Below are positions 17,719 through 51,221 of a DNA stretch of 64,000 nt, in pieces. The position numbers and the translations under genes were made by a program. The stretch comes from Stentor roeselii (Eukaryota; Ciliophora; Heterotrichea; Heterotrichida; Stentoridae), in NCBI GenBank assembly GCA_006503475.1, contig RSEH01000034.1, forward strand, positions 62,001 to 126,000, in the 5' to 3' direction. Within the stretch, counting starts at the first letter, position 1. Each line of letters starts with the position of its first letter. A model generated the notes under the pieces. It worked only from the letters and a program-made list of their open reading frames with translations. It made no database searches and was not told the DNA's origin.

Positions 17719-18312
17719 ATGCACCGAAGAACAAAGTCGGCATCAAAAACATCTCTTTTAATCTACAGTCCTCAGAAGCACGACATGATTCCTTTGGACT
17801 CTTTGAACTCTCCTGACAAGTCTCCTTTTAAACCTCAGAAAAAGTCTTTCAGTAGTTTTCTAGAGGCTTCTTTTTGTTACTATTCTCAAGATTTTTGGGA
17901 CTTTTCAAGTCTTTGCTATGATGATGTCGAGTCTCTTCGACTACAAGAAGAAGAACTGGAAAAAATCAAGACAGGTCTTGAAAAAAATAATAAGGACCTG
18001 GTAATTGAATGTGAAATGTTTGAAAGTTCTTTGAAAAGTCAGACAAGTAGTCGAAAAGAATTTGAAGTTAGTTTAAATGCTTTGAACTCTTATGTGGAAG
18101 GACTGGAAAAAGCTCTGGCTAAGGCTAATAATGAGATAAGGTTCATTCGTAGTCAGACTGAACAGGAAGAAACTGCAAAGGCTTGTAATTCGAAGAGAAA
18201 AAATGTGAAAGAATTGGAAAAACCGACTCCGAAACCGATTAATTATAAACCTCTTACTAGAAGAAGCTTGAGGAACTCAAGGGAGGTTTCTTTTAATAAT
18301 TTGAAGAATTAG
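17719..18312 (+). CDS. Short coiled-coil protein, 197 aa
   Basis: ATG 17719 gives a basic, Ser-rich N-terminus with S/T-P sites (YSPQKHD, NSPDKSP), an aromatic patch near residue 55 (CYYSQDFWDF), a coiled coil from about 70 to 150, and a basic tail. The start context is not AT-rich and no in-frame upstream ATG exists, so an undetected 5' mini-intron is possible. The 3' end lies in a ~51-bp tandem repeat shared with the convergent gene's end. Function unknown. Confidence 0.65.
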   Translation: MHRRTKSASKTSLLIYSPQKHDMIPLDSLNSPDKSPFKPQKKSFSSFLEASFCYYSQDFWDFSSLCYDDVESLRLQEEELEKIKTGLEKNNKDLVIECEMFESSLKSQTSSRKEFEVSLNALNSYVEGLEKALAKANNEIRFIRSQTEQEETAKACNSKRKNVKELEKPTPKPINYKPLTRRSLRNSREVSFNNLKN

Positions 18313-18428
18313 GCTATTTGAAGTTGAGGGACTCAATGTTTCTTTTAATTATTTGAAGAATTAAGCTATTTGAAATTAGGGACTCAATGTTTCTTTTAAT
18401 TATTTGAAGAATTAAGCTATTTGAAGAG
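18286..18428. repeat. ~51-bp tandem repeat across two convergent gene ends
   Basis: Units start near 18286, 18338 and 18389 and share the string TTTCTTTTAAT(A/T)ATTTGAAGAATTA followed by GCTATTTGAA. The first unit holds the stop of the plus-strand gene (18312) and the third the stop of the minus-strand gene (18417). The array probably arose by duplication of the shared 3' region. Confidence 0.85.
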
Positions 18429-20616: not shown

Positions 20617-20922
20617 TTAAAATAGCGGAAATATCATTCCTTCCCCGTATTGAGTCGAAACTTCAGACCTTTCATTTACTCTTTGACGGTATTCACAAGT
20701 CACTAGAGGGATGTAAAGCTCGAATTTCGACTGGTTTACTGTGGCTTCTCGAATGAAGTGCTTTTGGGCATGGCTTCTTACTTGAGTGCTCGTTCTTGTT
20801 TTGATTATCTCTGAAATTTTCTTCCAGTTGCGGCCATAGAGCTTGAGACCTTCTATAAACTTCCTGTGTTCGGCTCTTGACCACCTGCCTGATTTCTCGT
20901 CGAGTTCGATGATTTGTTTCAT
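20617..20922 (-). CDS. SHAQKYF-type MYB/SANT DNA-binding protein, 101 aa
   Basis: A single MYB repeat lies at about residues 12-60: GRWSRAEHRKFIEGLKLYG, then NWKKISEIIKTRTSTQVRSHAQKHF. The spaced tryptophans and the SHAQKHF end identify the SHAQKYF class, known in plants (CCA1/LHY-like) and many protists. The protein would bind DNA as a transcription factor in the nucleus. It is very short: the MYB repeat plus ~40 residues. ATG 20922 follows TCCTTATA. Target unknown. Confidence 0.88.
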   Translation of the reverse strand: MKQIIELDEKSGRWSRAEHRKFIEGLKLYGRNWKKISEIIKTRTSTQVRSHAQKHFIREATVNQSKFELYIPLVTCEYRQRVNERSEVSTQYGEGMIFPLF

Positions 20923-35999: not shown

Positions 36000-36602
36000 A
36001 TGTCCAAGAAAGAAGTGGTTGTGGATGGGCGTGGACACCTCCTTGGGCGACTAGCATCTATCATAGCAAAGCAGCTTCTAGAAGGACAACACGTGACTGT
36101 GGTGCGATGTGACGAGATAAACTTATCAGGTCACCTTGCCAACAACAGGATAAAGTATATGAAGTACCTGAGAAAGAGGATGAATACCAACCCCAGGAAA
36201 GGACCCTATCATCACAGAGCTCCAAGCATGATCTTCTTCAAGGCCGTCAGAGGAATGGTCCCCAGGAAGACTGCTCATGGACAGGCTGCCCTGGCTCGGC
36301 TCAGAGTGTTTGACGGAGTCCCTCATCCTTATGATACCAAGAAGAAAATGGTTGTGCCTCAAGCTTTGAGAGTTGTCAAATTCACTCAAGGAAACCAGTT
36401 TTGTGTTCTGGGAGACTTGGCCAATACCATTGGATGGAAACATCAGCAACTTGTCAAGAGACTTGAGGAGAAGAGAAAGACTAAGGCTAAGGTTTGGTAT
36501 CAGCACAAACTTGACCTGAACAAAGCTAAGGAACAGGCGTTGAATAAGGTCAAGGGAACTTTAGGAGCTGAGTTGAAGACTATTCAAGAACTTGGTCATT
36601 AA
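36000..36602 (+). CDS. RPL13A: 60S ribosomal protein uL13 (L13a), 200 aa
   Basis: Clear match to eukaryotic L13a in length and sequence: VDGRGHLLGRLASIIAKQLL, HRAPSMIFFKAVRGMVPRKT, GVPHPYDTKKKMVVPQALR and LANTIGWKHQQLVKRLEEKRK. It is part of the large ribosomal subunit. No intron. Codon choice is more C/G-rich in this gene than in the coiled-coil genes nearby, as expected of a highly expressed gene. ATG 36000 follows TAATAAAT. Confidence 0.98.
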   Translation: MSKKEVVVDGRGHLLGRLASIIAKQLLEGQHVTVVRCDEINLSGHLANNRIKYMKYLRKRMNTNPRKGPYHHRAPSMIFFKAVRGMVPRKTAHGQAALARLRVFDGVPHPYDTKKKMVVPQALRVVKFTQGNQFCVLGDLANTIGWKHQQLVKRLEEKRKTKAKVWYQHKLDLNKAKEQALNKVKGTLGAELKTIQELGH

Positions 36603-36647
36603 GTAGTTTACTCTAATATAATGATCACACTTCAGGGATAAAAAGCT

Positions 36648-36749
36648 GGGTGTTAGGGTGTTAGGGTGTTAAGGTGTTAGGGTGTTATTAACTGAATTCA
36701 AATGAATGTAGTACATTTCAGGGATAAAAAGCTGGGTGTTAGGGTGTTA
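36648..36749 (+). repeat. Interstitial telomere-type repeats within an 86-bp direct repeat
   Basis: The run 36648-36687 reads GGG(TGTTAGGG)2 TGTTAAGG TGTTAGGG TGTTA: four full units, one with a single change. A second block at 36734-36749 has GGG TGTTAGGG TGTTA. TGTTAGGG is the complement of CCCTAACA, the heterotrich telomere unit. Each block sits inside a longer repeat (starts near 36631 and 36717) with shared flanks TTCAGGGATAAAAAGCT and ATTCAAATGAATGTA. The block lies between uL13 and the LRR gene start. Confidence 0.9.
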
Positions 36750-36767
36750 ATAACTGTATTCAAATGA

Positions 36768-38969
36768 ATGTATTTCTTACTAATGGCGAGTTCACAGATT
36801 TCTCAAGCTAACTCAAAAGAGCTGGATTTGTCCAATCGAAACTTACAGAATATGGTTCAGGTCGCTGAAAACTTAAAAAGTCTTAACTTGTCTCATAACA
36901 AAATTGCATTACTTGAAGGACTTTCTGACAAAAATACCTTAAATGAAGTCAATTTGAGTTACAATCGATTGATTTCTATTGAAGGAATAGTAAGTTTGGG
37001 TAATTTGAGAGTACTTGATATTAGCTACAACTTTTTAAGTCCATCTCAGCTTCGACATTTAAAACAATTGAAAAGACTTAAAGTTTTGAATGCTTGTCAC
37101 AACCATTTTTCAGGTGATGAAGCTTTGGCTTGTATTAACCAGCTTAATCAAGTTAAAGAACTAATTTTGAGCTTCAATGACTTTTATTCATGGAATCTTG
37201 ATGGCCAGATGGAAAACCTCGGGAAATTGATTTTAGATAACAATAAACTTACAAGAATCAACTTACAGAATACGCCTAATTTGCAGGTTTTGTCATGTAT
37301 TGAAAATAGGATCAGTGAAATTTATGGACTTGCTGGTCTAACTAGCTTGATTCAGCTATTTGTTGATTCAAATGAACTTAATGAGTTACCACCCCTACCC
37401 TCTGTTCAAACACTAAGCGCATCTCACAACAAATTAAGTTCTCTTCCCATTTTCCCATCCCTCCAGCTACTAAACGTGAGTTTCAACCTTCTAAACCACC
37501 TTCCTAAAATTTCAAGCCAGATAACTCAACTAATAGTAGCAAGTAACTGCCTAACAACCCTTCCCTTTGGAATGAAGCACTTAGAAGTATTAGAAGCAAG
37601 TAACAATAAACTATCAAATCTTGATTTCCTATCCTCAAGTTCAAACCTTTCAATCCTTAAAGTCGCTTTCAACGAGTTTCCAAGTCTAGACCAGGTGATT
37701 TGGAAGGTTTGTCACTGTCCTTTGTCTGATGCTGACTTTTCAGGCCTTGCTGTATCCGATTCTCTTTATTTAAAAGTACTGAGTCGTTTTCCTTACTTAG
37801 AAGCCTTTAACGACCGTGCGGTGACTGAAGAGGACCGAGTAATGTTGAGGGTTAGGAAAGAAAGTTCGTCAAGTGAGGAGAAATTTCAGGAAATTCTTGA
37901 GAATTTAAAACCGAGTAGTAAACTGGAGATACCTGAACTTTCTCAAGGTGTTAGTTTGAAGATTGATCCTAACTCGAGTTCTGAGATGGAAAAACCTAAA
38001 TCTTCTCTATGTGAGTTTAACTCACCTCGCTCTGTTTGTTTAACACCTTCTCATACTGAGACTTTATCGGTTATTCCTTCTGTTCTTAGTCCTCGCCCCA
38101 CTGCTGAAAGTGACAAGGGATACATGTCTTATAAAATGAGAGAGATGTATCGATCAATAGTATCTTCTATGAAAAAAAACATCTCCAAACAATTTTTTGA
38201 TTTCGCTCAAGAGCACGACATTCCAAACAAGCCCAGACATCACCACCACCACTGCAAACATCACACTTGCAGGAAGAACAGGAATAGAACATCAATTGAC
38301 AGAAATCAAAATAATATCGAAACAGATGACGTTAGCCTAATCAGCAAGAAAAGTGTTGCAAGTCAAATAAATCGGATCAGATTCAATGAAAAAACCGAAG
38401 AATGGACCAAAGACCATCCAAAAGACTCTCAAAATATCAGTCTAGATGCAAAGTTCGAAACAGGCAATGATGATGAGTTCAGAGTTTCCTTTTCTCCTAT
38501 TCCAACTGTCCAAAGAAATAAAATTGAAGAATATTTTATCAAAGGAATTTTAAAATACTGCAAAAATCCTCCACGACCTGTCCTAAAACATGAAAAAACT
38601 AAAACTTTGATACAGGAATTAAGAGAAGAATGTCAGGAATTCTTGATTGTCACTAGTTTTTTTGCACAGTTTTCAGTGAAAGTAATGAAAGTTTTGAAGT
38701 GCTTCATGTTTGATGCGGTTTCTAATAAATCGTTTGATTGGGTTGGATTTTTTTATGCTAGTCAAGATGATCTTGTTCAAATCGCTAAAGATGTGGGAAT
38801 TTTTTTGGGAATGAAGGTTAGACTTAATGAAAATGTGAAGGTTAATGGGAGTTGCTGTATTTTATGTGCTGCTGTAGGGGAACAACTCACTCGGATTGGC
38901 CCAGGCTTTGTTGAGACCTCTGGTAATGGAATGGTAGTTCCTTCCTATGTTGTATGGTACGGAAGTTGA
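36768..38969 (+). CDS. Leucine-rich repeat protein, ~733 aa
   Basis: The N-terminal ~330 residues carry about 12-14 short LRRs of the SDS22-like type (LKSLNLSHNKIALLEGL, LNEVNLSYNRLISIEGI, LRVLDISYNFLSPSQL). The middle is Ser-rich with an unusual His/Cys run at ~488-500 (RHHHHHCKHHTC). The C-terminal ~130 residues (FLIVTSFFAQFSVKVMKVL...) look folded but match nothing I know. SDS22-type LRRs bind protein partners and are common in axonemal and phosphatase-regulatory proteins. Starts at 36768 or 36783 (MASSQISQ, behind CTTACTA) are possible; the first lies in the telomere-bearing repeat. It ends with TGA. Confidence 0.85.
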   Translation: MYFLLMASSQISQANSKELDLSNRNLQNMVQVAENLKSLNLSHNKIALLEGLSDKNTLNEVNLSYNRLISIEGIVSLGNLRVLDISYNFLSPSQLRHLKQLKRLKVLNACHNHFSGDEALACINQLNQVKELILSFNDFYSWNLDGQMENLGKLILDNNKLTRINLQNTPNLQVLSCIENRISEIYGLAGLTSLIQLFVDSNELNELPPLPSVQTLSASHNKLSSLPIFPSLQLLNVSFNLLNHLPKISSQITQLIVASNCLTTLPFGMKHLEVLEASNNKLSNLDFLSSSSNLSILKVAFNEFPSLDQVIWKVCHCPLSDADFSGLAVSDSLYLKVLSRFPYLEAFNDRAVTEEDRVMLRVRKESSSSEEKFQEILENLKPSSKLEIPELSQGVSLKIDPNSSSEMEKPKSSLCEFNSPRSVCLTPSHTETLSVIPSVLSPRPTAESDKGYMSYKMREMYRSIVSSMKKNISKQFFDFAQEHDIPNKPRHHHHHCKHHTCRKNRNRTSIDRNQNNIETDDVSLISKKSVASQINRIRFNEKTEEWTKDHPKDSQNISLDAKFETGNDDEFRVSFSPIPTVQRNKIEEYFIKGILKYCKNPPRPVLKHEKTKTLIQELREECQEFLIVTSFFAQFSVKVMKVLKCFMFDAVSNKSFDWVGFFYASQDDLVQIAKDVGIFLGMKVRLNENVKVNGSCCILCAAVGEQLTRIGPGFVETSGNGMVVPSYVVWYGS

Positions 38970-49245: not shown

Positions 49246-51221
49246 TAGTTTATAAAAGTCGATATTTGCGCAGTTTACCCTTGACGCTTACACCATTTCC
49301 GTGGTTCATAATGGACTTGATATTTAAGTTTTGGAGGGATTTTTTTGAAGAGTATTATTTGAATTTTTAGAAATAAAATTTTTCATATTGGATTTTTTGA
49401 TCGGCAGAAGTTTTGGGAATGGAGTTTATTGGGAATTTTCTTGTTTTAGGGATTGATTTTTTTTTTTTGGGATAGGGTTAGGTAATTTGAGAATAGTATT
49501 TGAATATGGTTTTCCTTTTATTTCTGGGTTTGTATGCTGATTTTTTAACTAATTTCATTAAATATTTAAGAGGGATGTTTTATGGTTTTGTGAGATTCTG
49601 ATAGGATGAAGGATCAGCTGTAGGAAATTCTATTGAATTACAACTTCAAAATACCAAAATTATTTACCCTACTAATATATTATCAACACATATTATATAT
49701 CAGTTTATAAATTTTTATAAGTCTTATTTCTTAGTTCTCCAAAATTTCATTTGTTAACACCAATTTACCTTGAATATCAGAAATTCAAAATGTTTTTCAG
49801 TATTTATTTCTTGATGTGCTCAAAATTTCATGTACTCACAAGTACTAACCCTTTATATCAGAAATTCGATAAGATACTCTTTAATATCCTAAAAATTGAG
49901 ATCTATAATACTAACCCTCAATATCAGAAATTCAATAAGATACACTTTAATATCCTAAAAATTGAGAGCTATAAATTCTTGCACACATTAAAACATATAT
50001 TTATGAGTTCAGAATACATGTAATTCTTCTGAACGTTTGCATAAGTCATCTTTAATGATAAAATTGTAAATAGAAATTAAGTCAGCTATAATGCTATCTG
50101 TTATTGACAATTCTACATCTATATCCATAAACTACTTATAAAAGGATGATTATTTGGCTATTATTCAGTGCGAAATTAGCTTTTGATGGAGTAAGTTCAG
50201 AAAATCTGGGATCTACTATTAAGAACTTTTAGTTTTGTTTATATTAATCAGGTAGTTAAATAATTGATTAATTATTAGTATTTATTTAAATTTCTTCATT
50301 CTAAACTATATGAATTAGGTCTTTGTATTAACTTCTTTGATGTTTATTTCGGATAAAGCTTCAGACATTTTGCATCTAACTTAAGAAAAGCCCAAGATTT
50401 ACAAAAAGAATGGTTAAAAGTTTAAAGGCTTCTGATGAGCAAGCCATATTTACAGTTTTCAATATTAATTTCACATATTTACTTACAATTTCAAAGATTT
50501 AACCGACTGGTCAGATTTTCAATTCTTATCGTTTCTAAGAAAAGGAATTAGAATAAGAAAAATTACAGACTGATAAAGACAGTGAGAAGTTAATAAAATC
50601 GATAAAAGTAAGCAATAGGGAAAAGCTAAATACTTTGACTTCGATAAAGTTTTCAAGATTACGGTATAATACAATTAGAAAAAAAAACATATTATAAATA
50701 AAGTATAAATAAGCTTAGAAAAATCACTACGGATATCACCATAATTAGATTAAAATTTCAAGACACAGATTTATTTCGACTGAGATTATAGAATTCGAAG
50801 CAGTTTGAGAAGAAATTAATTAAATAGGCCTAATTTCGAGCACTTAACACAAAAAACAAGATTTAACTATTTTCTAGAGGAAATTCAATATCTCAATCAA
50901 TCAAACCGAAAGGCAAAATTTTTTAATGGGTTCATTTCGCCAACCGTTTTTTATATCATGCCTCATGCCTATGCGTATTCGAAATAAACCTATACTTGAT
51001 TATCTATATAGACACTCTGTATTCTTAAATTAAAAAAAAGATAATAATACTAAATGAACTGTACTAGCCTAAAGTTACGAGCTACGCTCCCAATCTTTTA
51101 TTTTTATCACTGAAATCCATGTTATTCCTGTTAATCATGTTATCCCTTATTCCTTATAATTCTTCAATTTTTGCAGTATCTTCCACATCATTTCTTCATC
51201 ATCATTTTACCCATAATAAAA
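49246..51221. other. Gene-poor region, ~2 kb
   Basis: This is the longest stretch without a convincing gene. It is very AT-rich, with a 66-bp tandem duplication at 49844-49975 and scattered T-runs. The one frame longer than 80 codons (49751-50023) is driven by that repeat and is not believed. A plus-strand frame 51119-51436 overlaps the next gene in another phase. Near 50.93-51.1 kb the DNA is less AT-rich (for example CGAGCTACGCTCCCA); a non-coding RNA could lie here, but I cannot show one. Confidence 0.4.
49844..49975. repeat. 66-bp tandem duplication
   Basis: Two copies start at 49844 and 49910 (ACTAACCCT... ATATCAGAAATTC... TTAATATCCTAAAAATTGAGA). A partial, more diverged copy of the ATATCAGAAATTC part lies near 49777. 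Non-coding. Confidence 0.85.

Follow-up and report, generated by a model that had tools for sequence, protein, structure and literature searches.

Short interstitial arrays of the telomere unit in Stentor roeselii: a putative promoter-proximal element

Introduction

Why should a run of telomere-type repeats lie inside a chromosome, between the end of one gene and the beginning of another? The question is raised by a site in a 64,000-nucleotide stretch of the genome of the heterotrich ciliate Stentor roeselii (hereafter the window; C247:62001-126000 of a 208,948-bp contig), for which a preliminary description had proposed the healing of a break, an old chromosome end fused inward, or a point at which the macronuclear genome can fragment and gain telomeres. 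Here the site is compared with similar arrays in the whole assembly (44.4 Mb, 522 contigs) and with the telomeres at its contig ends.

The site between uL13 and the LRR gene

The telomere-type repeats described at 36.6 kb are real, as judged from the tandem-repeat call, the unit positions and the repeat alignment, and both of the neighbouring genes that had been named were confirmed by Pfam. The features of the site are as follows.

36000..36602, + strand: uL13 ribosomal protein gene (Pfam Ribosomal_L13 PF00572, 4.4e-24); its stop codon ends 45 bp before the array
36628..36713, + strand: direct repeat copy 1, aligned as ~62 bp plus 24 bp (three extra units)
36648..36687, + strand (G-rich strand): five-unit array, GGGTGTTA x5, with units starting at 36648, 36656, 36664, 36672 (= AGGTGTTA) and 36680
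36714..36780, + strand: direct repeat copy 2, which holds ATGs at 36764 and 36768
36734..36749, + strand: two-unit array of repeat copy 2, GGGTGTTA x2, with units at 36734 and 36742
36783..38969, + strand: LRR protein ORF (Pfam LRR_4 PF12799, 3.1e-19), with an in-frame alternative start at 36768 in repeat copy 2

The 8-bp array at 36648-36687 is reported by TRF as 5.0 copies with a score of 73. Units are present in both copies of the direct repeat, as had been described, in numbers of five and two when counted as GGGTGTTA rather than the four and one given earlier, and the repeat itself, first put at 86 bp, aligns as ~62 bp with an indel of 24 bp in copy 1. Copy 2 does contain the ATG at 36768, which is in frame; that the start codon belongs to the repeat is not established, because translation may equally well begin at a second in-frame ATG (36783) that falls just beyond it. 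Exact TGTTAGGG occurs four times in the window, always at this site, against a mean of 0.94 in 100 shuffles, two of which also reach four. The tandem form, rather than the count of single TGTTAGGG, is what exceeds chance, because TGTTAGGGTGTTAH is found at 109 places genome-wide and its reversed control at none, although reversed-pattern controls, that for the two-unit pattern included, are not codon-neutral and 7 of the 70 arrays considered below may be coding chance matches. Tandem repeats are common in the window (17 TRF rows), including repeats of 51- and 66-bp units at 934-1293, 18286-18425 and 49843-49974.

The telomere unit at contig ends

Long TGTTAGGG arrays were found at 75 starts, two of which were left out (an interstitial one in C196 and one in C244, where a break falls within an array); the 73 arrays kept all lie no more than about 170 bp from a contig end, with the G-rich strand leading outward. 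TGTTAGGG is the telomere unit of this genome, so the repeats inside the window consist of the species' own unit and not of a different one, in agreement with the preliminary description. The unit is the same as that published for another heterotrich, Blepharisma stoltei, CCCTAACA (PMC9942806).

Interstitial arrays across the genome

The window site is one of many. Its tract was found by BLAST inside at least six other contigs, and 70 loci with interstitial arrays were analysed, 57 of them from TGTTAGGGTGTTAH places (100 of the 109 places were listed, and L123 and L124, which are at contig ends, were not included) and 13 from a search with TGTTAAGGTGTTAGGG, whose fetched loci carry 1.5 kb on either side. 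The total is about 70 loci plus a few unread: C79:70069, C153:128277, C495:34387, C502:104491 and the unlisted TGTTAGGGTGTTAH places lie outside the set. The 70 loci hold 91 arrays of two to seven units, most of which are whole-number multiples of GGGTGTTA with fixed edges; the typical form on the C-rich strand is T-TAACACCC(TAACACC[C/T])n-[T/A]. The variant unit TGTTAAGG, searched as TGTTAAGGTGTTAGGG, is internal at 15 of 15 places, none of them near a contig end, and occurs in many of the longer arrays; the two-unit arrays (68/91) carry none. Since 68 of 91 arrays have just two units, a G-quadruplex was set aside as a general function.

Twelve of the 70 loci, among them the window site, have two or more separate arrays, spaced 40-41, 50, 57, 58, 62 (window), 63-65, 81, 85, 103, 107-110 and 127 bp apart, with some about twice these values and a single pair separated by 401 bp. 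At 21 of the 70 loci there are further single units alongside the arrays, on the same strand in 133 cases and on the opposite strand in 8, and at none of the 70 loci were two-unit matches found on both strands.

On the C-rich strand, the left edge has T before TAACA in 71 of 91 arrays, in a search whose pattern barred C at that edge and left the right edge free. At the right edge, CCC is complete in 78 of 91 arrays, the other 13 being without it; the next base is T or A in all 78 and TG follows in 34/78. Patterns of the same length that end in two other phases were rarer, with 17 and 15 places, of which 8 in each case lie no farther than about 160 bp from a contig end.

The junctions of the interstitial arrays differ from those at contig ends. 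Under one definition for both classes, TA precedes the first GGG in 33/91 interstitial and 58/73 contig-end arrays (p 2.4e-8), and the difference persists when one array per noncoding locus is taken (23/63 vs 58/73, p 5.9e-7). At least TTA in register is found in 21/91 against 54/73 (p 5e-11), and the start nGGTGTTAGGG in 5/91 against 28/73 (p 2.6e-7). CA, CT, TT or AT precedes the first GGG in 8 of the 73 contig-end junctions, as in many interstitial arrays, a likeness that speaks neither for nor against a fragmentation site. The edge is thus unlike the telomere junctions of the same genome and the units are not all of the chromosome-end type, neither of which is what a telomere scar should leave; head-to-head arrays or a long telomeric tract, as expected of a fused end, were likewise not found.

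Position relative to genes

The arrays are mostly intergenic: 7/70 lie in a coding-like frame, against 736/1000 random positions, for which the fair figure is nearer half of that, the unit having stops in three of six frames by hand derivation. Gene starts were called under the standard code by a 60-codon rule. Downstream of the array, on the side toward which the C-rich strand reads, 35 of the 70 loci have a start no more than 250 bp away (p 6e-8), against 20.9% per side in a control sample made up of the window and twelve 10-kb stretches (L054-L065; 184 kb in total), which were hand-chosen rather than random and have overlapping positions. On the other, G-rich side there is no excess (17/70 against 20.9%, p 0.46), and starts found only downstream outnumber those found only upstream (26 loci vs 8, p 0.003). 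Rules of 50 and 80 codons gave 40/70 and 27/70 against control values of 24.5% and 13.4%, and the result was 27/70 against 15.8% when starts were called by codon score; with a looser strand call the downstream figure was only 48 vs 22 loci, and upstream there was no bias. Start distances did not differ significantly from the control (p 0.059). With respect to the code, reading TGA as tryptophan left 0 of 54 in-frame TGA codons in the 184-kb sample flanked on both sides by clearly coding sequence; TGA looks like a stop in this genome, unlike the code of B. stoltei.

The preferential 5′-flank position that marks a plant telo box was therefore found (35/70 vs 20.9%), but under the 60-codon rule no start lies on either side at 27 of the 70 loci, and the window site is in the minority orientation among interstitial arrays: its C-rich strand reads leftward (-), toward uL13 at its 3′ end, with the LRR gene on the G-rich side. 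A Pfam scan of eight neighbour proteins and the two window proteins confirmed a uS15 ribosomal protein, a CCT subunit, an eIF4E-family protein and a proteasome subunit on the C-rich side, and TBP and an aquaporin-type protein on the G-rich side. Of these, the uS15, eIF4E-family and CCT proteins are the ones that bear on a telo-box-like association with translation or ribosome genes; the neighbouring genes share no clear common function. At the locus L039 (near 63462 of G000:C77), an array of six units separates two divergent genes, with a methyltransferase gene on its C-rich side and the TBP gene on its G-rich side.

Searches for other kinds of element

Promoters of noncoding RNAs were rejected as an explanation: for 60 of the 70 loci (L040, L043, L048 and L066-L122), Rfam at E up to 0.5 returned one tRNA, at L070, and a weak match antisense to it; ARAGORN on 60 loci (L066-L124 plus L040) returned the same tRNA only, and Rfam on the window gave no match at gathering score. 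The ends of miniature transposons were also rejected, the terminal repeat of Blepharisma Bogo/BogoMITE starting with CTCCCCCC at TAA/TTA target sites, as given in the available text, with no match to TAACACCC (PMC9942856). The single 11-mer TTAACACCCTG has 545 places against 4 for its reverse, an excess of more than 100-fold, but all five sites fetched are coding (by eye, AAC-ACC-CTG codons); the single unit was accordingly dropped as a promoter motif, and reversed-pattern controls are unsafe in coding DNA. Noncoding DNA of the 184-kb sample shows no enrichment of the 9-mer TTAACACCC (one occurrence, against three in coding sequence), and a de novo search for enriched 9-mers did not return the element.

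A putative promoter-proximal element

The array is, we consider with moderate confidence, a promoter-proximal element resembling the plant telo box, a putative protein-binding site that would tune the adjacent gene. A protein-binding promoter element would explain the units, the edges, the strand preference and the position alike. A sequence-specific double-strand DNA-binding protein would bind the array and tune transcription of the adjacent gene, in a mode of action modelled on plant telo boxes and on yeast Rap1/Tbf1 sites. The binder is most likely a protein that also binds telomeres, or else a Myb factor reading TAAC every 8 bp; a telomere-repeat-binding protein is suggested because the array unit is identical to the telomere unit, the chief alternative being a Myb factor that has nothing to do with telomeres. 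Copy number would shift by slippage of 8-bp units, as the 24-bp difference in the window suggests, and by duplication of longer blocks. Candidate binders are plentiful, with at least 150 Myb-domain matches in the genome. One Myb-domain match lies in the window itself (20758-20889, - strand; C247:82758-82889).

The short interstitial telomere motif of plants, the telo box AAACCCTA, provides the closest precedent: it too places a telomere unit in the 5′ region of genes, and both a telomerase origin and a promoter function have been proposed for it (PMC3022908, available text). The arrays in S. roeselii differ from the plant motif, which occurs at about 10% of genes, in having two to seven tandem units, mostly with fixed edges, at about 70 loci of a ciliate; any association with ribosome genes or with partner motifs is here only putative. 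A second likeness is to the Rap1 rpg boxes and clustered TTAGGG of yeast, where telomere-binding proteins use telomere-type promoter sequence; Saccharomyces cerevisiae Tbf1 uses the clusters with no required orientation or spacing, according to the text available (PMC2834713). In S. roeselii, by contrast, the spacing is fixed at 8 bp, one strand is preferred and the binder is putative.

Alternative explanations

The arrays may instead be short interstitial telomeric sequences laid down by telomerase at breaks in open promoters and kept or duplicated without function, a reading that we regard as unlikely. Animal short interstitial telomeric sequences consist of a few telomere units inside chromosomes; the edges seen here mismatch the genome's own telomere junctions, and the arrays are biased on one strand toward gene starts. 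Identity with the telomere unit and a location mostly between genes, near gene starts, speak for telomerase, the fixed 3′ end phase could reflect a telomerase pause, and an origin at breaks has been proposed for the plant telo boxes (PMC3022908, available text). The 5′ edge, however, is unlike the 73 contig-end junctions, although telomeres were added at these in the somatic nucleus, and telomerase may act differently at germline breaks; in addition, a T lies beyond the repeat at the other edge in 71/91 arrays, the TGTTAAGG units are internal only, and a strand bias relative to the gene is not expected. Telomere scars are disfavoured because they predict junction-like edges, end-type units and no gene strand bias, and the data lean the other way on each. 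A telomerase origin at promoter breaks with function acquired later is compatible with a telomere-binding protein and with a Myb factor alike.

Equally unlikely, in our judgement, is a transcription-factor site unrelated to telomeres, in which TAACACCC would be recognized by a tandem factor, of Myb type or other, and would match the telomere unit by coincidence. TAAC is a Myb-like core, Myb-domain proteins abound in the genome, and the fixed edges come with flank preferences outside the repeat (T in 71/91; TG after CCC in 34/78); on the other side, identity to the telomere unit over 8 bp is a steep coincidence, and such a factor is itself only putative.

Ordinary microsatellite slippage of a chance octamer is improbable. 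Period-8 near-dimers of at least 13 bp are common in noncoding DNA (89 in 42.7 kb), and the window copies differ by exactly three units; these 89 span many octamers, however, with 19 having units of 3-5 G/C, three of which come from the window site itself, and slippage alone would not account for the return of one and the same octamer, mostly with fixed edges, at 70 loci.

The origins first proposed for this locus, namely break healing, an inward-fused chromosome end or programmed fragmentation, are the least probable: the telomere unit is confirmed and B. stoltei has 46,705 potential internal telomere addition sites, most counted from single reads (PMC9942806, available text), but healing is not supported given 70 similar loci with mostly whole-unit, fixed-edge arrays, junction contexts unlike those of contig ends and the internal-only TGTTAAGG, fusion is not supported given tracts of at most seven units and no two-unit arrays facing each other at any of the 70 loci, and the mostly intergenic placement with its strand bias toward gene starts disfavours both further. 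The alternative telomere addition sites of B. stoltei are read ends with added telomeres, a different object from arrays assembled inside contigs (PMC9942806, available text).

Significance

A search of the main text of mostly open-access papers turned up no description of an element of this kind in a ciliate. A paper on heterotrich promoter motifs concerns, in its available text, E2F and Pumilio motifs (PMC9371601), and the AT-rich elements described for the 5′ subtelomeric regions of spirotrich nanochromosomes are a different motif (PMC8899921, available text).

A more speculative extension, to which we give a low probability, is that a telomere-binding protein doubles as a promoter factor for a small set of genes. 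Chromosome ends would then act as a sink competing with promoters, because the somatic nucleus holds very many of them, and the output of these genes would report the number of ends.

The findings warn against taking arrays of this kind for scars of fusion or fragmentation. If the arrays are promoter elements of the proposed type, they would constitute a third case after plants and yeasts and would point to a general way for telomere proteins to turn into regulators of genes; they would also provide a ciliate system in which chromosome ends and promoters may compete for one protein.
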